From assembly GCA_021325615.1 (NCBI GenBank), contig JAJPGU010000015.1, forward strand, positions 1 through 43,324: a DNA stretch of 43,324 bases, given 5' to 3'. This document shows, in pieces, positions 389-10,432 of the stretch (position 1 is its first letter; every line of letters begins with the position of its first letter). A program made the position numbers and the translations under genes. The notes under the pieces were generated by a model, which saw only the letters and a list, made by a program, of their open reading frames with translations, did not search any database and had not been told where the DNA came from. The stretch is from Nitrososphaerota archaeon. GTDB taxonomy: Archaea; Thermoproteota; Nitrososphaeria; Nitrososphaerales; Nitrosopumilaceae.

Positions 389-1495
389 ATGAGCAACACC
401 ATGCTGAATCAGGATGGGCTTAAACAAGAGGGCAACAAGTCCAAGAACGAAGGATTTACACTAGAACGGGTTGCGGAGCTGGCAGAAATCTTGGCTGCTA
501 GGGTAGAGTCAGCCATAGGTGAGATAGAAAGACTCAATGGTCAGACCCAGATGATTGCAATTAATGCAAGGATAGAGGCAAGCAGGGCAGGAATGGCGGG
601 AAAGGCATTCTCCGTTGTTGCAGAGCAGATGAACGACTTGTCGGGAAAAATTGGAGTGGTAAGTAAAAAGATGAGACATGAAAGTCGGGACTCTATCGAC
701 GAGCTTGGTAATCTTATCAAGACTCAGGCGACAAATGTCCGGGGTACGAGGCTTTCAGACATTGCCTTGACTAACATAGACCTGATAGACCGGAGCCTCT
801 ATGAAAGATCATGCGATGTGCGTTGGTGGGCTATAGACGGTAGTATTGTTAATGCCCTTACCTCGCAAGCACCCGAGGCACGCGAAATGGCCTCAAGGAG
901 GCTTGGAATCATACTAAACTCGTACACGGTCTACTTTGATCTTGTGCTATGTGATCTTGATGGCAATATCATAGCAAACGGCAGACAGGACTTGTACAGG
1001 TCTGTGGGAATGAACGCTAAAAACAATCTTTGGTTTGAAAGCGCGATGAAGACTTCGAGTGGTAAAGAATTTGGTTTCCAGACTGTTAGCAAATGTCCGC
1101 TTGTTAACAACGAACACACCCTTGTTTTTTCATGTACTATCCGTAAAGATGGTGATCAGAACGGCTCGATTATTGGAGTGTTGGGAGCCATCTTTCGTTG
1201 GGAAGATCTCGCTCAAAAAATAGTCAAAGGAATACCGATTTCTGACGAGGAAAGGAACCGAACCAGGGTCTGCATTGTTGACAATAGCGGTTTACTTCTT
1301 GCAGATTCTCAAGACCATGTCTTAGGGGAAAGAGTGGAATTCCTGGCGAAAAACGACCTTTTCTCGCAGATAAAGGGATTCACAATAACCCAATACAAGG
1401 GGGATGATTGTTGCATCGCACATGCCTTTTCCCAGGGATACGAAACATATTCATCCAAATGGCATTCTTTGATAATTCAGAGACTTGAGCGGTGA
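389..1495 (+). CDS. Soluble chemoreceptor-like protein: short MCP hairpin followed by Cache sensor
   Basis: This 368-aa protein has no predicted signal peptide or membrane helix. Residues about 44-95 match the hairpin tip of MCP signalling domains (QTQMIAINARIEASRAG, then GKAFSVVAEQM), the part that contacts CheA and CheW. Residues about 125-360 look like a Cache-type sensor domain (LYERSCDVRWWAIDGS, LCDLDGNIIANG, CIVDNSGLLLADS). The order is therefore signalling first and sensor second, the reverse of ordinary receptors. The helical bundle is too short for the usual methylation helices. I chose the ATG at 389 because GAGGT lies just upstream (377-381); an open frame extends 35 codons further, but its composition is unconvincing. 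From memory, similar Cache domains are common in proteobacterial cytoplasmic receptors, so transfer from bacteria is plausible. It sits just upstream of the che operon and may be a soluble input to it. Confidence 0.75.
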   Translation: MSNTMLNQDGLKQEGNKSKNEGFTLERVAELAEILAARVESAIGEIERLNGQTQMIAINARIEASRAGMAGKAFSVVAEQMNDLSGKIGVVSKKMRHESRDSIDELGNLIKTQATNVRGTRLSDIALTNIDLIDRSLYERSCDVRWWAIDGSIVNALTSQAPEAREMASRRLGIILNSYTVYFDLVLCDLDGNIIANGRQDLYRSVGMNAKNNLWFESAMKTSSGKEFGFQTVSKCPLVNNEHTLVFSCTIRKDGDQNGSIIGVLGAIFRWEDLAQKIVKGIPISDEERNRTRVCIVDNSGLLLADSQDHVLGERVEFLAKNDLFSQIKGFTITQYKGDDCCIAHAFSQGYETYSSKWHSLIIQRLER

Positions 1496-1585
1496 GTAAT
1501 CCGGGTTCCAAAAAGGCCATGCTATAAACCCGAATCTCCAAAAAGGCACTCCATATGCAGTAGATCGGCCAGATTCCTTTAATCC

Positions 1586-1870
1586 ATGCAAGCCAAAAAA
1601 TCATTTATGGTGACTTCGTCAGGCGATCGTCCCTTTGATGCCATCTGGGAGGCCCTTGGAATGCAGGCTCCTGAGCCACTAGGGGAGGATGACGGGTACA
1701 GGTGGGGGCTCTCGCACTTGGAGTATGTGAAGAAAGAGCTTTCAAAACTCGAGGAAAGGGCAATTGCCAGGAGGGATTCGAGCCTTTTGCATAGCATAGT
1801 TAATTCCAAGCTTAGGGCAAGCGAGGCAGAGCAGGAACTACGCCAAAAACTGGGAAACCTCCAGAAATAA
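1586..1870 (+). CDS. Small coiled-coil protein in chemotaxis cluster, unknown function
   Basis: This 94-aa protein belongs to no family I recognise. The N-terminal half contains a short acidic and aromatic stretch (FDAIWEALG, LGEDDGYRWG). The C-terminal half, residues about 45-92, is charged and heptad-like (VKKELSKLEERAIARR, then LRASEAEQELRQKLG), predicting a helix or coiled coil. A TATA-like CCTTTAATCC at about 1574-1583 lies 28 nt before an internal ATG at 1607, so a leaderless start there (87 aa) is an alternative to 1586. It lies between two receptor-like genes and reads in the same direction as the che operon, so a role as an adaptor or receptor accessory is possible but not shown. An overlapping antisense frame exists but looks less protein-like. 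Confidence 0.5.
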   Translation: MQAKKSFMVTSSGDRPFDAIWEALGMQAPEPLGEDDGYRWGLSHLEYVKKELSKLEERAIARRDSSLLHSIVNSKLRASEAEQELRQKLGNLQK

Positions 1871-1993
1871 CCGATTCACGCCAAGAATCAGACGGGTGAT
1901 CCGGGAATTTTTTGAGGATGACGCTGTTTGTATGATCACTTTAAACACACGTGAACATATTATCAGTACAGAAAATAAAATAACGGTACAAAA

Positions 1994-3325
1994 ATGGATT
2001 TTGGAAGAATCTTCAGGATAGGTCTAAAGACAAAAATCAACGCGATGGTAAATGTCGCGTCTGCAATTTCTATAGCCACGGTTTCAGTTTCTAGCTACAT
2101 GGCGGGAGGTCATGGTGGGACAGATGATGCAACACGCTATGTCATGACTGGGATTGTAATGCAGGCTGTCGTTGGTGTACCTGCCTACTTTGTTGCCCGC
2201 TCTATTGCTCAACCAATACTTAGAATGGCCCAGACTGCCGAAAAAGTCGGACATGGGGATCTCACAGGGGAATTGATTGAATCAAAATCAAACGACGAGC
2301 TCGGTAAACTAACGCGCTCTTTTAACAACATGGTTGTAAACTTGAGGAACTTGGTAATTCAATTACGCGACAGTTCATCATTGGTGGCATCTAACTCCGA
2401 ACAGGTAGCCTCGTCGACTGAGCAAATGAACTCATCTGTCCAGCAGATTTCATCCACAATCCAACAAATTTCAAAAGGCTCCCAAACCCAGGCCCACGAG
2501 CTGGAGGCCACAAGCAAGGTAGTTACAAAATTAACAAAGGACATGAAAAGCTTGGCCACGAAGGCAAGAGCAACTGCAGACCTCACAAGGGAGGTGGGTC
2601 TGATATCAGAATCCGGATCAAAGTCAGCCGCAGAGGCCGATTTCAGGATGTCAAAAATAATCAGCGTAACAAACGACTCCGCAAGAAAAATTAAGGAGTT
2701 GGCGGAAAGGAGTGGGGAAATTACTGCGGTTCTTGAAGTCATACGAAAAATTGCAGATCAAACCAACCTTCTAGCTCTTAATGCGGCGATAGAGGCTGCC
2801 CGCGCAGGAGAGGCAGGGAGGGGATTCGCAGTGGTTGCCGACGAGGTAAAGAGACTTGCAGAAGGTTCTGCCAAATCTTCGGAGGAGATTGACGGTCTCA
2901 TAAGGCAAATCCAGGATGATGCGCAGGCCACAGTACAGAGCATAGAGGGGGGGAGCAAGGAGGTTCTTGAAGGAAGGATTGTCATAGACAAGGCCCTGAA
3001 GGCACTGAATGATATCGCAAGCAAGGTGAAGGAAGTTTCCTTAAACGTGACAGATGTTGCAAGCACCTCCCAGGCGCAGGTAAGCGAGATTGAACATCTT
3101 TCAAAAGCAGCATCGGAAATTGCCGCCGTTTCAGAACAGAACGCGTCAGCAACGGAGGAAGCATCTGCTGCAACAGAGGAACAGACGGCAGGAACTCAGG
3201 AGATAGCGGCATCAGTTCAGAAAATGGCTTCAATGGCAGGAGATCTGTCAAAGATAGCATCGGAATTCAAAATACCTGAGGAGTCCCAGCACCAAGCCAC
3301 AAGAAAAGGGGAATTGGTGGCATAA
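1994..3325 (+). CDS. Transmembrane methyl-accepting chemotaxis protein with minimal extracellular loop
   Basis: This 443-aa chemoreceptor has two membrane helices at about 16-36 and 49-71, separated by only about a dozen residues ([14 protein letters not shown]). It is followed by a HAMP linker (about 68-121) and a full MCP signalling domain. The hairpin tip is canonical at about 245-295 ([35 protein letters not shown]), with Glu/Gln-rich flanking helices suited to methylation by CheR and demethylation by CheB. Ordinary receptors have a ligand-binding domain of 100 or more residues between the helices, and here it is essentially missing. The receptor may sense through the membrane or HAMP, or work with a partner. 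It is the first gene of the tight che run; its stop codon shares a base with the cheW start. Confidence 0.93.
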
Positions 3326-3807
3326 TGAGCGAGACCATTGTAGAAGGCCACCTTCAGGTAGTTGTTTTCAGCCTAGTGGATAGAAAAAACAATAAGAAGG
3401 AAGATTACGGCGTGTCGATAGAACAGGTAAGGGAAATCCGCCCCATTGACTCAATCACCAAAGTACCAAACGTGAAGAGTTACGTCAAGGGAGTGATGAA
3501 CCTGCGGGGAATGATAATCCCTGTAATTGATGTAAAACTAAAGCTCGGATTTGTGGGTGCAGACTCGGGACCAAAGTCTAGAATTCTGGTGGCAGATGTT
3601 GGAGGAAAGCTTACGGGGCTATTAATTGACGAGGTAGACCAGGTAATGCGCATCCCGTTGAAGGAGGTAGAAACAAACCTTTCTGGGGGCTTGGAATCGC
3701 TAGATTACATCAGGGGAATTGCAAAGACATCGGGGAAACTTATTGTGCTTTTGGATATTGTAAAGTTCCTTGAGGCAGAATCCATGACGGAATCGAGAGG
3801 AAAATAG
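3325..3807 (+). CDS. cheW: Chemotaxis coupling protein CheW
   Basis: This 160-aa single-domain CheW (SH3-like fold) bridges receptors to the CheA kinase in the cytoplasmic signalling array. Visible hallmarks are the opening strand VVVFSLVDRKNNKKEDYGV, the EQVREI motif, the conserved VMNLRGMIIPVIDVKLKLG core and a closing strand with ILLDIVKFL-like character. Its ATG overlaps the last base of the upstream MCP stop codon, with GGTGG just upstream as ribosome-binding site, so translation is probably coupled. The length is normal for the family. Only one cheW is present in the window; CheA also carries its own CheW-like domain. Confidence 0.95.
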   Translation: MSETIVEGHLQVVVFSLVDRKNNKKEDYGVSIEQVREIRPIDSITKVPNVKSYVKGVMNLRGMIIPVIDVKLKLGFVGADSGPKSRILVADVGGKLTGLLIDEVDQVMRIPLKEVETNLSGGLESLDYIRGIAKTSGKLIVLLDIVKFLEAESMTESRGK

Positions 3808-3808
3808 C

Positions 3809-4192
3809 ATGTCCACAACCGCCTCTGCCAAGATCTTGATTGTAGATGACGCATCGTTCATGAGGGTTGTCCTAAAGGACATACTGGTATCGCATGGCCT
3901 AGTCTCCCAAGTCTTTGAGGCAGGTGACGGGGTCGCAGCAGTTGAGTCATACAAGCAGGCAAAACCAGACATCGTGACAATGGACATAAACATGCCCAAG
4001 GCAGATGGGATACAGGCGCTCAAAGCAATAATGCAACTGAATCCTAAGGCCAAAGTCGTAATGGTCACTTCTGTTGAACAAAAACACATCGTTCAAGATG
4101 CCATGAGGGCTGGTGCGCGAGACTACGTGGTGAAGCCTTTTGACAGATCAAACGTGGCCATGGTAATAAGTAAGGTAATCAGGGCGAGATAA
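3809..4192 (+). CDS. cheY: Chemotaxis response regulator CheY
   Basis: This 127-aa single receiver domain carries the phosphosignal from CheA toward the archaellum motor. The acidic pair is D13-D14 (ILIVDDASFMR), the phospho-acceptor is D59 (TMDINMPKADG), the switch Thr/Ser is T87 (VMVTS) and the conserved lysine is K109 (VVKPFD). All functional residues are intact. It starts one base after the cheW stop and ends two bases before cheB. In archaea CheY is thought to reach the motor through the adaptor CheF, which is not seen in this window; it could lie in the adjoining archaellum cluster beyond the left edge. Confidence 0.94.
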   Translation: MSTTASAKILIVDDASFMRVVLKDILVSHGLVSQVFEAGDGVAAVESYKQAKPDIVTMDINMPKADGIQALKAIMQLNPKAKVVMVTSVEQKHIVQDAMRAGARDYVVKPFDRSNVAMVISKVIRAR

Positions 4193-4194
4193 TC

Positions 4195-5256
4195 ATGATG
4201 ATGGCATCTGAAAAAAATCAGATCAACGTCATGATAGTAAATGATTCTCCTTACATGATTGAACTCATTCGCGATATGCTATCACTCCAAAGCAACATGA
4301 AGGTGATCGAGACTGCAAGGGATGGATGCGAGGCGCTTCGAAAGATCAGGCATGTTAACCCAGACGTAATTCTTCTTGATCTTGAAATGCCGAATATGGA
4401 CGGACTAACATTTATCGAGAACGTCATGAAGGAAAAAGTTGTCAACATCATAGTAGTCAGCAATTATAGCAAATCAGGCACCAAGATGATACTCGACTCG
4501 TTAGAACTCGGCGCAGTCGACTTTGTCGCGATCCCGCAGGATGATCCAGATTTGCTGAAAAATCTCAGAGACACGTTAGTGGCAAAGGTGGAGGCGGTTT
4601 CAAGGTCCAACCCAAGTATCCTTGTCCCAAAAGCAATTTCCAGGCTCAGGCCGAAAATCCAAAAAAATCCTTCCTCAGAAACAAGGGCCAAAAAGGTAGT
4701 TGTGATAGGGGCGTCAACTGGAGCCCCGAGAATAATAACCAACATACTGCGTGAAATTCCTCCTGACATACCAGCGGGGTTCTTGATTGTCCAACACATG
4801 TCAAAGGAATTCATCACCTCCTTTGCAGAAAGGCTCGACGACGTGTCAAACATCAGGGTCAGACAGGCAAAGGAGAACGACATGGTCGAGGAAGGGCTGG
4901 CACTTCTTGCGCCGGGAGACATGCACATGGAAGTTTCCCAGGATGGCATGGTGCGGCTTAACCAGAGTCCGAAAAGATTCGGGGTACGCCCTGCTGTGAA
5001 TGTGACCATGGTGTCAGCATCAGAAGCTTTTGGTGCCAATACCGTGGGGGTGCTTCTGTCCGGAATGGGGCAAGATGGGGCGTTCGGAATGAAAATGATT
5101 AAAAAAAGACACGGTGCAACCATGGCGCAGGATGAGTCGTCATCTGTGGTTTTTGGGATGGCAAAGGCTGCCAACGAGTTACATGCCGTTGATAAGTTAG
5201 TGGACGCTGGAAGCCTTGCAACGGAGATTACAAAGGTGGTAGGACGGGATGTCTGA
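4195..5256 (+). CDS. cheB: Chemotaxis methylesterase CheB, with altered receiver pocket
   Basis: This 353-aa protein has an N-terminal receiver (about 10-130) and a C-terminal methylesterase domain (about 165-350). The esterase catalytic triad is visible: S174 in GASTGAP, H201 in IVQHMSKEF and D294 in GMGQDGAFG. It removes methyl groups from receptor glutamates and may deamidate glutamines. The receiver keeps phospho-acceptor D62 (LDLEMPNMDG) and the switch Ser (VVSN). The first of the paired acidic residues is Asn (IVNDSPYM), and the invariant lysine is replaced by Ile (AVDFVAIPQD, around I113). Three ATGs in a row open the gene, so the start is uncertain by two codons. It overlaps cheA by 8 bases. 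Confidence 0.94.
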   Translation: MMMASEKNQINVMIVNDSPYMIELIRDMLSLQSNMKVIETARDGCEALRKIRHVNPDVILLDLEMPNMDGLTFIENVMKEKVVNIIVVSNYSKSGTKMILDSLELGAVDFVAIPQDDPDLLKNLRDTLVAKVEAVSRSNPSILVPKAISRLRPKIQKNPSSETRAKKVVVIGASTGAPRIITNILREIPPDIPAGFLIVQHMSKEFITSFAERLDDVSNIRVRQAKENDMVEEGLALLAPGDMHMEVSQDGMVRLNQSPKRFGVRPAVNVTMVSASEAFGANTVGVLLSGMGQDGAFGMKMIKKRHGATMAQDESSSVVFGMAKAANELHAVDKLVDAGSLATEITKVVGRDV

Positions 5257-6826
5257 AAACAGCAAATACCGAGAGATGTTCGTCCAAGAGGCACTTGAAC
5301 ACGTTGAAAACCTCAACCGCCACCTCCTACAATACGAGGAGGAGCCAAGTGTACGGGATCATATAGACATACTGTTTAGGTCAGCCCATACATTGAAGGG
5401 AATGGCTGCCACCATGCAGTATGATCAAATCAGGGACATCTGCAAGGCAATTGAGGAGATTTTTGACGGTTTCAGGAATGGCGAGATGACAATCTCGTCA
5501 GAACTTGGGAACGTTCTTCTCCTTGGGATAGATCACCTTAGGAACCTGGTGCCAGATGAGGCAAAGCGGGTTGATTTGGAGGAGTTTTTAAATTATTTAA
5601 AAAACCCCGGAGAATTCAGGGCCGCGCCGGCGGAGCCTGGAGCCCAACCAGAAAATAAGACCGCATCTCCTACTGTGAGGGTAAAAATGCAGGATCTTGA
5701 CTCGGTTGTCAACTTGGTAGGGGAAATGATGATATCAAAAATGCAGCTTGATCAAGTCATCCAGGGGTCCAACTTGGAAGAGGGCAGAGAAATTCTCATG
5801 AACCTAGGGAGGCTGATAACAGATTTACAATACCAAACAATGAAAATTCGGCTCGTCCCAATCGAACACATATTTAACATGTTCTCAAGAATGGTGAGGG
5901 ATGTTTCACATTCCCTTGGAAAGGAGGTGAATCTTGAGATTCAAGGCTCCGATATAGAACTCGACAGAACTGTCCTTGACGCCATAAGCGATCCGCTCCT
6001 CCACATGCTGAGAAATGCCATTGATCATGGGTTGGAAACGCCAACTGAAAGAGTCGAATGCGGCAAGCCTGAAATGGCAACAATCCTTCTCAAGGCAAAC
6101 AGGGTTGGAGATAGGGTGGAAATCCAAGTTGTTGATGATGGAAGAGGGATAGACCTTGATGCGATAAAGAGGAAGGCTCTTGAGAGAAAACTGATCTCTG
6201 AGGATGAAATAAACCGGATGTCAGAGGAGGAGATAGTCAACCTCATCGGGACCCCTGGACTTTCCACGGCAAAGGAGGTAACGGACATTTCCGGACGTGG
6301 CGTGGGAATGGATGTCGTACTGACCCAGGTAAAAAATGTCGGGGGGCAGGTCAAAATCTCGACTAAAAAGGGTGAGGGGACAAGTATAGTTCTCACAATC
6401 CCTATGAGCCTTGCCATAATAGGGGGACTGCTAGTGAACATCTCTGATCAAAAATTTGTGCTGCCATTATCGAGCATTTCAACCACAATAACCGCAAACG
6501 CCGATGAAATCAAGTCAGTCCACGGCAGGGAGGTAATTTCGTTAAGGGGAGAGGTGATCCCCATCGTCAGGGCAGCACGAATCCTAGGGTTTGATGAGCC
6601 CGCAGACGGTAGGTCCTTATCTCAAGTTAACATAGTCGTGGTGGAAAAGGAGGGCAAATCTTACGGACTTGTAGTTGATTCTCTTGAGAAGGAGCAAGAG
6701 GTTGTTATCAAACGGATGGAGGGCATGCCAAATTCAAATTCATCGTTCTCAGATGCTACAATTCTACCCGATGGCAAAGTGGCGTTGATTCTCGAACCTT
6801 CTTTGTTGGTGTCGGTGGAAAGATGA
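5249..6826 (+). CDS. cheA: Chemotaxis histidine kinase CheA lacking P2 domain
   Basis: This is a 525-aa kinase. Its P1 phosphotransfer domain (about 1-110) carries H47 in RSAHTLKGMA. A short Pro/Ala-rich linker (about 118-142) takes the place of the P2 domain that binds CheY in many CheA proteins. The P3 dimerisation helices follow (about 145-205), then the P4 ATPase with N-box N256 (RNAIDHGLE), G1 box VVDDGRGID and G2 box GRGVGMDVV, and a CheW-like P5 (about 390-525). The lack of P2 makes it shorter than the roughly 650-aa enterobacterial enzyme. It phosphorylates CheY and CheB in response to receptor signals. It overlaps cheB by 8 bases and cheC by 4, indicating translational coupling. Confidence 0.95.
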   Translation: MSENSKYREMFVQEALEHVENLNRHLLQYEEEPSVRDHIDILFRSAHTLKGMAATMQYDQIRDICKAIEEIFDGFRNGEMTISSELGNVLLLGIDHLRNLVPDEAKRVDLEEFLNYLKNPGEFRAAPAEPGAQPENKTASPTVRVKMQDLDSVVNLVGEMMISKMQLDQVIQGSNLEEGREILMNLGRLITDLQYQTMKIRLVPIEHIFNMFSRMVRDVSHSLGKEVNLEIQGSDIELDRTVLDAISDPLLHMLRNAIDHGLETPTERVECGKPEMATILLKANRVGDRVEIQVVDDGRGIDLDAIKRKALERKLISEDEINRMSEEEIVNLIGTPGLSTAKEVTDISGRGVGMDVVLTQVKNVGGQVKISTKKGEGTSIVLTIPMSLAIIGGLLVNISDQKFVLPLSSISTTITANADEIKSVHGREVISLRGEVIPIVRAARILGFDEPADGRSLSQVNIVVVEKEGKSYGLVVDSLEKEQEVVIKRMEGMPNSNSSFSDATILPDGKVALILEPSLLVSVER

Positions 6827-7419
6827 CATCTATCTTGAACCCGTCAGAACTTTGCTCCCTTGAGGGGGTGCTGGATTCATACATTGCTCAGAAGACCGCC
6901 ATGGCTCTCTCTTCACTCCTTGGTGAAGATGTATCGCACAGCCTGAAGGCAACCCACGTGGAGCCTGAAAAATCCAACGGCCTTAGGGAATTTGCAGAAG
7001 AATTGGTCGTCTGCTCCGTTTTCCTCCATGGCGGCGGAGACGTGAGATTGGGTATCCTGTATTCGATTCAGGAATGTGATGCAAAAAAAATAGCTGCCAA
7101 ATTGATGTGCCTGGACAAGGTCGATAGTCTGGATGACATAGGCAAGTCCGCAATATCCGAAGTTGGAAATATAATGTCGGGTTCGTTTTTCAACGCCTTA
7201 TCTAACCATACAGGCCTCAAAGTAGACTTGTCAACGCCTGATTTTGCAATGACATCCGTGGGAACTCTAATGGAACCCCACGCCTCTGAATTCCTGTGTC
7301 CCATCAGCGACATCGTAACCGAGGTGGAACTGATTGGAGACAGTAGCGGCGTCCGAGTTCATATGTTGATAATCCAAGACAACGACAATGCGCGGAAACT
7401 ACTCAACGCCAAGGCATGA
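6823..7419 (+). CDS. cheC: CheC-family CheY-P phosphatase, single-site
   Basis: This 198-aa CheC-family protein carries one phosphatase signature, [D/S]xxxExxN-(22 residues)-P, at S109, E113, N116 and P139 (SAISEVGNIMSG ... LSTPDF). Typical bacterial CheC has two such sites, and the N-terminal half here lacks the first. CheC dephosphorylates CheY-P and partners with CheD. It overlaps cheA by four bases (ATGA). A paralogue with the same single motif lies at 8580-9167. The two may form a heterodimer or act on different CheY-like receivers; that is inference. Confidence 0.88.
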   Translation: MTSILNPSELCSLEGVLDSYIAQKTAMALSSLLGEDVSHSLKATHVEPEKSNGLREFAEELVVCSVFLHGGGDVRLGILYSIQECDAKKIAAKLMCLDKVDSLDDIGKSAISEVGNIMSGSFFNALSNHTGLKVDLSTPDFAMTSVGTLMEPHASEFLCPISDIVTEVELIGDSSGVRVHMLIIQDNDNARKLLNAKA

Positions 7420-7459: not shown

Positions 7460-8353
7460 ATGGATGGCGTCCACAGTGTTTCAAGTGGTGTCGCGAGTTT
7501 GAACGGTACATCTTCTAACGAGGACGTCCTGAATCTTTTTGGTAGTGTGTTTGAAAGCTATGGCTTTGATATGGGGAGATACAAGGCATCCTTCATAAAA
7601 AGACGGTTAGATCGGAGAATGGGAATTTTAAACATTGTAAATTATGAGGAATATGCAGGATTTGTAAAGAAAGACAAGAGGGAATTTGATGAATTCTTCA
7701 CATCGCTATCGATTAATGTGACAAACTTTTTTAGGGATTATTCGGTGTATGATTGTTTCAAAACCTGCGTCATACCAAAGATATTGGAAGGCTTGGAAAA
7801 GTCTGAAAAAATCAAGGTGTGGAGTGCGGGGTGTGCGTCAGGAGAGGAACCCTACTCCATCGCAGTCATGTTTTTGCAGGCGATGGAAAAACTAGGGAAA
7901 TTTGTGGTCGAGGTTACTGCGAACGATATCAACAAGGCTGCTGTCGAATATGCAAAAAATGGTACATATCCAGCAGGTGCCGTGGAAAAACTGCCAAGGG
8001 ATACCATCAGCAAGTATTTCGAAGTTCTTGATACGGGGGATGATTTGCACTATACGGTAAAGCCTGAGATAAAGGAATTTGTTTCCTTTAGGACATCAGA
8101 TATTCTGTCAAATGACGCAAAGCGAATGGATGCCGTGTTCTGTAGAAATGTCCTGATTTATTATGAACGAGAGGCACAAGAACTAATCATAAACAAATTC
8201 TACAACTCTCTCAAGAATTCCGGGTTTCTTGTTCTCGGCATGGATGAGACAATGCTAGGAAGGAGATGCGAAAAGTTGTTTCTGCCAGTGATGCCCCGAG
8301 AGAGGATTTACCAAAAAGTTTCACCTGCGACTGGCCTGTCCAACAAAACCTGA
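7460..8353 (+). CDS. cheR: Chemotaxis protein methyltransferase CheR
   Basis: This 297-aa protein transfers methyl groups from S-adenosylmethionine to receptor glutamates. The N-terminal helical domain (about 20-95) includes YKASFIKRRLDRRM and SINVTNFFRD. The Rossmann methyltransferase domain has the AdoMet motif WSAGCASGEEPYSI at about 121-134, an acidic ribose-contact region near TANDIN, and CRNVLIYY at about 228-235. The length is normal. A 40-base gap separates it from cheC. With CheB it forms the adaptation pair for the MCP at 1994-3325, which is the only receptor in the window with full methylation helices. Confidence 0.94.
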   Translation: MDGVHSVSSGVASLNGTSSNEDVLNLFGSVFESYGFDMGRYKASFIKRRLDRRMGILNIVNYEEYAGFVKKDKREFDEFFTSLSINVTNFFRDYSVYDCFKTCVIPKILEGLEKSEKIKVWSAGCASGEEPYSIAVMFLQAMEKLGKFVVEVTANDINKAAVEYAKNGTYPAGAVEKLPRDTISKYFEVLDTGDDLHYTVKPEIKEFVSFRTSDILSNDAKRMDAVFCRNVLIYYEREAQELIINKFYNSLKNSGFLVLGMDETMLGRRCEKLFLPVMPRERIYQKVSPATGLSNKT

Positions 8354-8445: not shown

Positions 8446-8592
8446 ATGGCGCGTACAGTTTACAAGTCTACGGAACTGGAAATTAGGAACTCTGGGGTAA
8501 ATCCTAAGACATGTGATTCATTGGATGGTTTGAAGTCTCAATGTGGGGAAAGATGTGGGTGTGATGCCTCACTCCCATCTTGTTGGCGATAG
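8446..8592 (+). CDS. Possible small cysteine-rich ORF overlapping cheC2 start
   Basis: A 48-codon open frame starts at the ATG at 8446 and ends with TAG at 8590-8592. The product is polar at its N-terminus and Cys-rich at its C-terminus (CGERCGCDASLPSCWR, with one further Cys upstream), spacing that could bind a metal. It occupies most of the gap between cheR and cheC2 and would overlap the cheC2 start by 13 bases. There is no strong ribosome-binding site and I recognise no family, so it may be a chance frame. Confidence 0.25.
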   Translation: MARTVYKSTELEIRNSGVNPKTCDSLDGLKSQCGERCGCDASLPSCWR

Positions 8593-9167
8593 GCTTGACG
8601 GCTGGAAATTTACTCCAAGTGGGAAATATTATGGAACAATATGTCTGCGCGAAAACAATTCCGATGCTTTACAATCTCATGGGAGAACCTTTTTCATATT
8701 CTGTTAAAAATATGGATCCTGCAAATGCTGAACCCTTCAGACATTCTGTGCATGAGGTGGAAAATACGGGTGTGGTTTCTGCCGCATATGTTCGTTGTCA
8801 GGGGGATTTTCATTTTGGTTTCCTATGGCATGTTCAAGAAAAAGATCTCAGGCTGCTGGCAAAAAAGATGCTTGGTCGTTATCATATTGGCGCAATTGAA
8901 AACCTAGAGATTTCATCCGTCTCGGAATTTGGTAATATTCTCACTGCATCAATTGTCAATGCAGTCTGTAATGAGAGGTACTGCAGGCTTATCTCAACGG
9001 TCCCCGGGTTTGCTGTGGAATCCTTGAGGGCACTTCTAGGGGAAGTTATTTCTGATTTCGAAACAGGATCCGCCGATTTCTCGGCATTTGCAGCGGAGTT
9101 CCATGGAACACTATCCGGCATAAAATTGGGAATGCTCTTGGTTGAGAATCCTCCGAGGGAAAATTAG
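8580..9167 (+). CDS. cheC: Second CheC-family CheY-P phosphatase
   Basis: This 195-aa paralogue of the protein at 6823-7419 has the phosphatase signature S112, E116, N119 and P142 (SSVSEFGNILTAS ... STVPGF) and lacks a second site. The TTG at 8580 is the first possible start after an in-frame stop at 8562. Its N-terminus then aligns with that of the first CheC (LLQVGNIMEQYVCAK against LCSLEGVLDSYIAQK). The later ATG at 8631 would cut into the conserved first helix, so I prefer 8580. It lies directly before cheD, the usual CheC partner, with a 24-base gap. Confidence 0.85.
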   Translation: MLAIGLTAGNLLQVGNIMEQYVCAKTIPMLYNLMGEPFSYSVKNMDPANAEPFRHSVHEVENTGVVSAAYVRCQGDFHFGFLWHVQEKDLRLLAKKMLGRYHIGAIENLEISSVSEFGNILTASIVNAVCNERYCRLISTVPGFAVESLRALLGEVISDFETGSADFSAFAAEFHGTLSGIKLGMLLVENPPREN

Positions 9168-9191: not shown

Positions 9192-9689
9192 ATGACTGAC
9201 ATGGTTGAGGTAAAAATGGGCGGGATGGAAATATCAAGCGGTGAAGTTGGGGAGATGAAAACCTTTGTGGGATCATGTGTGGCTCTTTGTCTTTTTGATC
9301 CCGTGTCAAAGATTGCAGCGATGGCACACATAATGCTGCCAAAAAAAGCCGGGGAAAAATCCGTATGTGAGCCGTCGGAATGTGGAAAGTATGCGGATAA
9401 AGCCTTTGAAATAATGCTTCAAAAGATGACTGCCTTGGGGGCAAACAAAGATAGGATACTGGCAAAGATTGTAGGCGGTGCGGCAATTTTCTCACACGAG
9501 TCGGAAAATGGGATATTTAACATTGGGGCGAGGAACATAGCCGCGATAAAACAAATCCTGGAAGAGCACCATATTGTTATCGCTTCTGAGGACATAGGGG
9601 AAAATTTCGGAAGATGGGTAAAATTCAATCTCGTGTCGGGAGAGATCACTGTTACATCTGCCCTGAAAAAAACAGAAACAACCATCTAG
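9192..9689 (+). CDS. cheD: Chemoreceptor glutamine deamidase CheD
   Basis: This 165-aa enzyme deamidates receptor glutamines and forms complexes with CheC. The catalytic cysteine is C29 in VGSCVALCLFD and the catalytic histidine is H46 in AMAHIMLPKK, both in the family's standard context. The GGAGGA ribosome-binding site at 9178-9183 sits 8 bases before the ATG and fixes the start. The length is typical. It closes the enzymatic part of the che operon. Confidence 0.93.
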   Translation: MTDMVEVKMGGMEISSGEVGEMKTFVGSCVALCLFDPVSKIAAMAHIMLPKKAGEKSVCEPSECGKYADKAFEIMLQKMTALGANKDRILAKIVGGAAIFSHESENGIFNIGARNIAAIKQILEEHHIVIASEDIGENFGRWVKFNLVSGEITVTSALKKTETTI

Positions 9690-9811: not shown

Positions 9812-10432
9812 TTGGTGGTAAGGCTAGCTGACCTAAGGGACAGGCTTGTCGTATTTGCCGTAGTCACGGGGATCTTTCTGCCAGTAAGGTTGCTTTTTTA
9901 CACCTATGTTTCATCCCATTGGATTGGTAGTCTGGGGCTTGTTTCCTCGATGATGCTTCTAATCACCCTCCTTGCCCACAAAGGCAAACTGGGGTTCTTC
10001 GGAAGGATCTTTGTCGAACAGATGACCAAGTCAATGCGGGGCAGGTCTGGGGTTATAGCGATAGGTCTTTCTGTGGTATTGATTACATATTTGGGCAGTA
10101 CTCTTGTTTGGATAGATCGTGGAGACACGGTTTATTCTGGCGAGAAGCAGGTTGTTGCCCAGCTTATCTTTTCTGGCTCGAGCCCAAACGCGTCTCAAAT
10201 GAGGTATATGGGACAGGTCCTCCAGTCTCATCCGAGTGAATTTATTCCGGGCCTTTCGCGTTTCGACCAGGTGATTTCCATGACATATGCAATCCTTAAC
10301 GACATGATGGGGGGATGGCTTGTAAACCTCGATACGATACTTCTTGTGGAGCAGTTTGAAATCCTCGGCCTTGTAATTTTCTACCGAAAGGTGGTGGGCC
10401 ATTATCTGCTTGTGCCTTCAACCGCGGGATGA
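9812..10432 (+). CDS. Small multi-pass membrane protein after cheD, unknown function
   Basis: This 206-aa protein has hydrophobic segments at about 12-32, 38-56 and 80-100 and an amphipathic or hydrophobic C-terminal stretch (about 165-195), suggesting three or four membrane helices. I do not recognise the family. An in-frame TAG at 9806-9808 limits the start to TTG 9812 or GTG 9815. A loop of about 60 residues after the third helix (DRGDTVYSGEKQVV onward) could face outside. It follows cheD by 122 bases in the same direction, so it may belong to the motility regulon, but no motif ties it to signalling. Confidence 0.65.
   Translation: MVVRLADLRDRLVVFAVVTGIFLPVRLLFYTYVSSHWIGSLGLVSSMMLLITLLAHKGKLGFFGRIFVEQMTKSMRGRSGVIAIGLSVVLITYLGSTLVWIDRGDTVYSGEKQVVAQLIFSGSSPNASQMRYMGQVLQSHPSEFIPGLSRFDQVISMTYAILNDMMGGWLVNLDTILLVEQFEILGLVIFYRKVVGHYLLVPSTAG

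Follow-up and report, generated by a model that had tools for sequence, protein, structure and literature searches.

A soluble protein joining a chemoreceptor tip to a dCache sensor at an archaeal chemotaxis locus: a probable minimal cytoplasmic receptor

The window analysed here is the whole of a 43,324-nucleotide stretch of contig JAJPGU010000015.1 (assembly GCA_021325615.1, positions 1 to 43,324) from a Nitrososphaerota archaeon. Near its beginning it carries a chemotaxis (che) operon headed by the genes of two proteins related to MCPs, referred to below as P0001 and P0002. The features of the locus are as follows.

389-1495, plus strand: P0001, candidate soluble tip-dCache chemoreceptor of 368 amino acids (Pfam, hydropathy, AlphaFold2, Foldseek)
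461-742, plus strand: predicted hairpin tip of the MCP type in P0001, spanning residues 25-118 and turning at residue 69 (Pfam, HMM, tip model)
743-838, plus strand: helix linking the hairpin C-arm of P0001 to the Cache domain, being the Cache N-terminal helix, residues 119-150 (conservation)
743-1486, plus strand: predicted cytoplasmic dCache sensor of P0001, residues 119-366, with no domain beyond it (Pfam, AlphaFold2, Foldseek)
1586-1870, plus strand: conserved small ORF, che-linked, no Pfam match (found in 30 of 68 genomes)
1994-3325, plus strand: P0002, membrane MCP without an extracellular sensor, with TM hairpin, HAMP and 44H-type bundle (Pfam, hydropathy, heptads)
3325-3807, plus strand: CheW (Pfam)
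3809-4192, plus strand: CheY-like receiver (ORF translation, by eye)
4195-5256, plus strand: CheB (ORF translation, by eye)
5249-6826, plus strand: CheA with Hpt, H-kinase_dim, HATPase and CheW domains (Pfam)
6823-7419, plus strand: CheC/CheX-like protein (Pfam)
7460-8353, plus strand: CheR (ORF translation, by eye)
8580-9167, plus strand: conserved operon protein of CheC-like length, no Pfam match (Pfam scan, neighbourhood comparison)
9192-9689, plus strand: CheD (Pfam)
9812-10432, plus strand: multi-pass membrane protein closing the che operon (hydropathy, neighbourhoods)

The ATG at 389 is supported as the start of P0001 because its homologues begin with the same MSNT. A hydropathy scan revealed no transmembrane segment in the protein, and its dCache is not of the extracellular, TM-flanked kind. 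Residues 36-88 match positions 32-84 of the 172-position Pfam MCPsignal profile (PF00015; E 2.5e-10, 40.9 bits against a curated cut-off of 34.6), and residues 152-350 match dCache_1 (E 1.8e-10) with 41.2 bits, just under the curated cut-off of 45. MCPsignal is matched by all 61 members of the aligned family and dCache_1 by 57 of the 61 at E<=1e-3. With the helix starting at residue 25 and turning at residue 69, the hairpin would have about six heptads per arm. To our knowledge, this is far shorter than any known receptor class, the shortest described being 24H, with 12 heptads per arm. The restriction of the MCPsignal match to the profile positions given above means that the adaptation (methylation) helices are absent, and P0001 would therefore be incapable of self-adaptation.

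The AlphaFold2 monomer model of P0001, for which the alignment of 61 family sequences was the input (pLDDT 89.8), consists of a helix at residues 25-147 followed by a two-lobed domain with a dCache fold and a long N-terminal helix. The Foldseek matches of this second part are dCache sensors, with DctB (3e4p, E 9e-12) first, followed by CtaA, PctA and Tlp3. By DSSP, the first helix of the full model is unbroken; a straight rod was nevertheless rejected, because the tip modelled alone (pLDDT 91.7) matches chemoreceptor hairpins along both arms. The top 13 PDB matches of this tip model are all chemoreceptor signalling domains, and the tip is therefore best read as a fold-back hairpin, a reading taken from the Foldseek matches of the tip model. 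The best match is Tsr from the core signalling unit of E. coli (6s1k; TM-score 0.72, rmsd 2.3 Å, 95 columns), and Foldseek gives a TM-score of 0.74 against 1qu7. The E-values are modest (3e-3), as expected of a short, helical hairpin. In an HMM comparison with the PDB, the closest solved sequences to the tip are T. maritima receptor fragments of 85-90 residues, in 4jpb and 3ur1, which we take to be receptor:CheA:CheW co-crystals.

Conservation in the family is highest at residues 119-150, where the hairpin C-arm turns into the Cache N-terminal helix (mean entropy 0.56 bits). The tip core (residues 45-90, 1.64 bits) is better conserved than the two hairpin arms (2.48 and 2.65 bits). In an ungapped mapping to Tsr made by eye, 60, 52, 52 and 61 of the 61 family members retain the equivalents of Tsr N381, E385, R388 and F396, respectively, and the equivalent of F373 is not conserved among them.

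P0002 is organised quite differently. Pfam places a HAMP domain at residues 66-118 and MCPsignal at 224-379, and the signalling arms comprise 22 heptads each. The loop of the TM hairpin, approximately residues 36-48, leaves about 13 residues outside the membrane; TM2 is clear, and TM1 falls under the hydropathy cut-off of 1.6, yet lies above it in close homologues (including L063 and L064). The genes of P0001 and P0002 are co-directional and 498 bp apart, with the 94-residue ORF at 1586-1870 between them. This arrangement is conserved across the genus, so it is not a matter of chance. Only P0001 and P0002 match PF00015 in the whole 1.83 Mb genome. The preliminary description of this locus had portrayed a soluble protein in which a Cache sensor is preceded by a hairpin tip alone, close to and co-directional with a membrane MCP having a full signalling bundle and only about a dozen residues outside the membrane. 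This picture is borne out: Pfam, AlphaFold2 and Foldseek agree on the first protein, Pfam and hydropathy on the second, and the gap and the gene order are those stated above.

The small protein between the two genes belongs to a family of 86-94 residues that is absent from the che-negative controls; in other genera its gene lies between those for CheW and CheB, and it is possibly an unrecognised archaeal chemotaxis component. At the edge of the contig (1-97, minus strand) lies the N-terminus of an archaellin gene, divergent from P0001 and cut by the contig end. Complete relatives have several near-identical archaellin genes at this site, upstream of P0001, and these repeats probably account for the many MAG contigs that break there.

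The distribution of P0001 tracks the chemotaxis system. In 300 genomes of the class, P0001 was found in 48 and CheA in 49; 44 genomes have both, 4 have P0001 alone, 5 have CheA alone and 247 have neither (Fisher 3e-42), and inside the genus the corresponding counts are 12, 1, 1 and 13 (p 9e-6), genomes, many of them MAGs, being counted as independent apart from this within-genus check. P0001 thus follows CheA far above chance, as would be expected from the earlier suggestion that the protein docks onto the CheA/CheW array. Four genomes have P0001 without CheA. In G116 and G183, the P0001 genes are on short contigs or contig ends, and the G148 genome is 93% complete. The fourth, G074, carries a remnant of 189 amino acids with an in-frame TGA stop (C26:2767-3288), and the P0001 gene seems to decay, as in this genome, upon loss of the che system. 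Conversely, five genomes have CheA without P0001. G098 and G172 are fragmented, and G218 was discarded as a counter-example: its contig stops just upstream of the MCP, at the same break point as the contigs of other members of the genus, so the absence is uninformative. The remaining two, G084 and G164, are well-assembled che-positive genomes in which the absence is apparently real.

P0001 is not confined to archaea. A contig scan yielded at least 594 relatives, many of them bacterial, with Planctomycetota, Verrucomicrobiota and Pseudomonadota represented among the best 80. Some records of relatives, at 72-78% identity, bear the name Nitrosotalea. CheA is present in 47 of 49 non-archaeal (bacterial) genomes carrying the family, a proportion that refers to carriers of the family. 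Other che genes lie within 6 kb at 16 of 62 bacterial loci, and a Verrucomicrobia locus has the order CheA-MCP-CheB-CheR-P0001-CheY. In archaea, the gene is found between MCP and CheW (L038, L067, L068), just after CheA (L035), at the operon head, or away from the che operon (L041). A few bacterial relatives are on plasmids, including Methylobacterium plasmids, and full-length viral or phage relatives number zero in IMG/VR and a phage collection. The archaeal sequences form one clade in the tree (support 100/97). Nearest to this clade are bacterial sequences (L082, L084, L085, L086, L115) from records labelled as anammox planctomycetes, a Nitrosomonas MAG and a betaproteobacterial MAG, in a tree sample chosen by similarity and with MAG contamination possible for these records.

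Taken as a whole, we consider it probable that P0001 joins the CheA/CheW array as a minimal autonomous cytoplasmic chemoreceptor, its dCache signalling backwards, alongside P0002 as a scaffold. The N-terminal hairpins of two P0001 molecules would pair into the tip of a short four-helix bundle, which would dock onto CheW and the P5 domain of CheA, with the tips arranged in trimers of dimers of their own or mixed with P0002. The dCache would bind a cytoplasmic small molecule, and the resulting change would pass backwards from the dCache to its own N-terminal helix, to the hairpin C-arm and on to CheA. No other MCP-tip protein of this genome has a recognised sensor; P0001 therefore probably supplies much of the chemical input to the array, and array-level cooperation with P0002 is for the same reason plausible, the longer 44H-type P0002 serving putatively for array scaffolding and adaptation.

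The proposed direction of signalling is unusual for a Cache domain. According to Upadhyay et al. (PMC4822843), nearly all Cache families are principally extracellular, the long N-terminal helix of the Cache directly continues TM1, and the sole signalling route out of an extracellular Cache is its C-terminal TM helix. The Cache of P0001 is predicted to be cytoplasmic and C-terminal, with the hairpin on its N-terminal helix, and any covalent signal path would therefore be this helix. Backward signalling of this kind is suggested by the order of the domains; as an alternative to the covalent route, the Cache may pack directly on the hairpin.

A separate question is whether P0002 has an input of its own, independent of P0001, either through its TM hairpin and HAMP, responding to energy or membrane state, or through the multi-pass protein encoded at 9812-10432 as a possible partner. 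This is a serious possibility, albeit one that we rather doubt, and it is compatible with the explanation preferred above, which concerns P0001. P0002 spans the membrane as a TM hairpin and exposes next to nothing outside, the multi-pass gene is conserved at the close of the che operon, and Htr transducers working with sensory rhodopsins provide a precedent; on the other hand, the multi-pass family is present in che-negative genomes (G129, G007, G044) and missing from nearly all che-positive genomes of f2 and f3. The multi-pass family also adjoins a fused form of the P0001 gene, described below, at L055 and is near one at L053.

The preliminary description had gone further, to a receptor split between the two genes. 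What stands of this idea is that P0001 tracks the che system, is frequently encoded within or next to che operons, and has a hairpin predicted to be like a receptor tip; what falls is the dedicated pair. That P0001 evolved specifically to give sensing to P0002 via mixed trimers is unlikely in our view. The two genes are adjacent throughout the genus, they encode the only two PF00015 proteins of the genome, and the lone full MCP found in the genus of the window and in G019, G072, G109 and G193 lacks a sensor, all of which would suit such a pair. In these lineages, sensor domains on MCP-tip proteins were found in P0001 alone. However, a comparison of archaeal loci and bacteria indicates that the presence of P0001 is not tied to a sensorless MCP. 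Its relatives coexist with partner MCPs having their own dCache (L037 and L068, in f3/g27 and f2) or a PAS domain (L033, L049), and long and short MCPs occur together in g2. Nor can all TM-less archaeal partner MCPs be counted as sensorless, because Pfam finds a C-terminal PAS in the soluble ones of g7 and g4. The family therefore did not evolve to complement sensorless receptors, although it may still have this role here; the architecture is present in many bacteria, and the G084 genome mentioned above has a sensorless MCP without P0001. Within a 44H array, moreover, the hairpin of P0001 would be mismatched in length (6 versus 22 heptads per arm), which makes mixed trimers awkward. Adjacent separate pairs of P0001-like genes were also seen in bacteria (L108 and L143, Armatimonadetes and Asticcacaulis records).

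It is likewise improbable that P0001 is a modulator, whose tip competes for CheW/CheA or caps trimers and is freed or trapped by a ligand that tunes array size or gain: the tip-only form without a methylation region, diverged tips such as those of the fused relatives and a report that Vibrio ParP can intercalate into core units via MCP and CheA contacts (PMC5706961) favour it, but the trimer-contact positions lie in the conserved tip, as expected for a receptor, and no other MCP-tip protein in the genome bears a recognised sensor domain.

The fused relatives just alluded to are tip-dCache-tip-dCache proteins of 710-727 residues from genera g7 and g4 (L033, L050, L051, L053-L058, L072), which are seen in single-contig genomes too. 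G019 carries two separate genes of the family side by side. In the tree, the first of these branches with the first halves of the fused proteins and the second with their second halves, so duplication preceded fusion. The counterpart of Tsr N381 is T in the first halves and remains N in the second. The simplest reading, by analogy, is that the fused tandem is a natural single-chain pseudo-dimer in which one of the tips has specialised. Tsr dimers engineered as single chains are functional (PMC4692393); like the tandems, these Tsr~Tsr proteins and natural soluble single-chain MCPs have two receptor hairpins in one chain, but theirs are full signalling domains, in contrast to the archaeal tip-dCache-tip-dCache arrangement.

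Several known systems share part of the P0001 architecture. H. pylori TlpD has a C-terminal cytosolic sensor that controls CheA, as reconstituted with CheW and CheA (PMC6715182). Like P0001, it is soluble with the sensor after the signalling hairpin, and it acts through CheW and CheA; unlike P0001, it has a longer receptor coiled coil, an extra N-terminal region and a zinc-binding CZB in place of dCache. T. maritima Tm14 (PDB 3g67) is also soluble, but has a longer bundle and no sensor domain. The T. maritima fragment of 3ur1/4jpb is close to the P0001 hairpin in size as well as being its best sequence match, but is a crystallographic construct. The chemoreceptors PctA, Tlp3 and CtaA and the kinase DctB have the same sensor fold, theirs being extracellular, whereas that of P0001 would be cytoplasmic, C-terminal and joined by its N-terminal helix. 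Methylobacterium MtpA, a receptor for methanol/formaldehyde taxis, is soluble too, with the MCP signalling domain alone recognised, and differs in that no dCache is reported (PMC10613068, PMC12202990), the comparison being one of published descriptions. A phrase search of the open-licence literature returned no relevant papers on cytoplasmic Cache receptors.

The amino-acid-binding motif of the dCache_1AA subfamily was looked for in P0001 and rejected. This motif, as we understand it, has an Arg two residues before a conserved Trp; in P0001, W215 is invariant across the family and position 213 is N, the five commonest residues there in the family being A, T, S, E and N. The anammox and Nitrosomonas labels on the nearest bacterial relatives hint at a nitrogen compound, which is only a lead. 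We know of no established stimulus for chemotaxis in ammonia-oxidising archaea.

A broader picture, in which these proteins form a family of minimal cytoplasmic receptors, present in ammonia-oxidising archaea and many bacteria, whose dCache drives CheA via its N-terminal helix, whose tandem tips are specialised, and which in Nitrosotalea-type archaea supply the sole recognised sensor of the array, is offered tentatively, as falling a little short of an even chance. A natural tip-only receptor would test how little of a chemoreceptor suffices for the control of CheA, and the fused tandems may serve as natural single-chain dimers for the study of asymmetric roles of the two tips. A dCache attached via its N-terminal helix would widen Cache signalling beyond the C-terminal-helix route. 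For ammonia-oxidising archaea, P0001 is the most likely entry point of a cytoplasmic signal into chemotaxis, and since its expression in soluble form is to be expected, it should be open to ligand screening.
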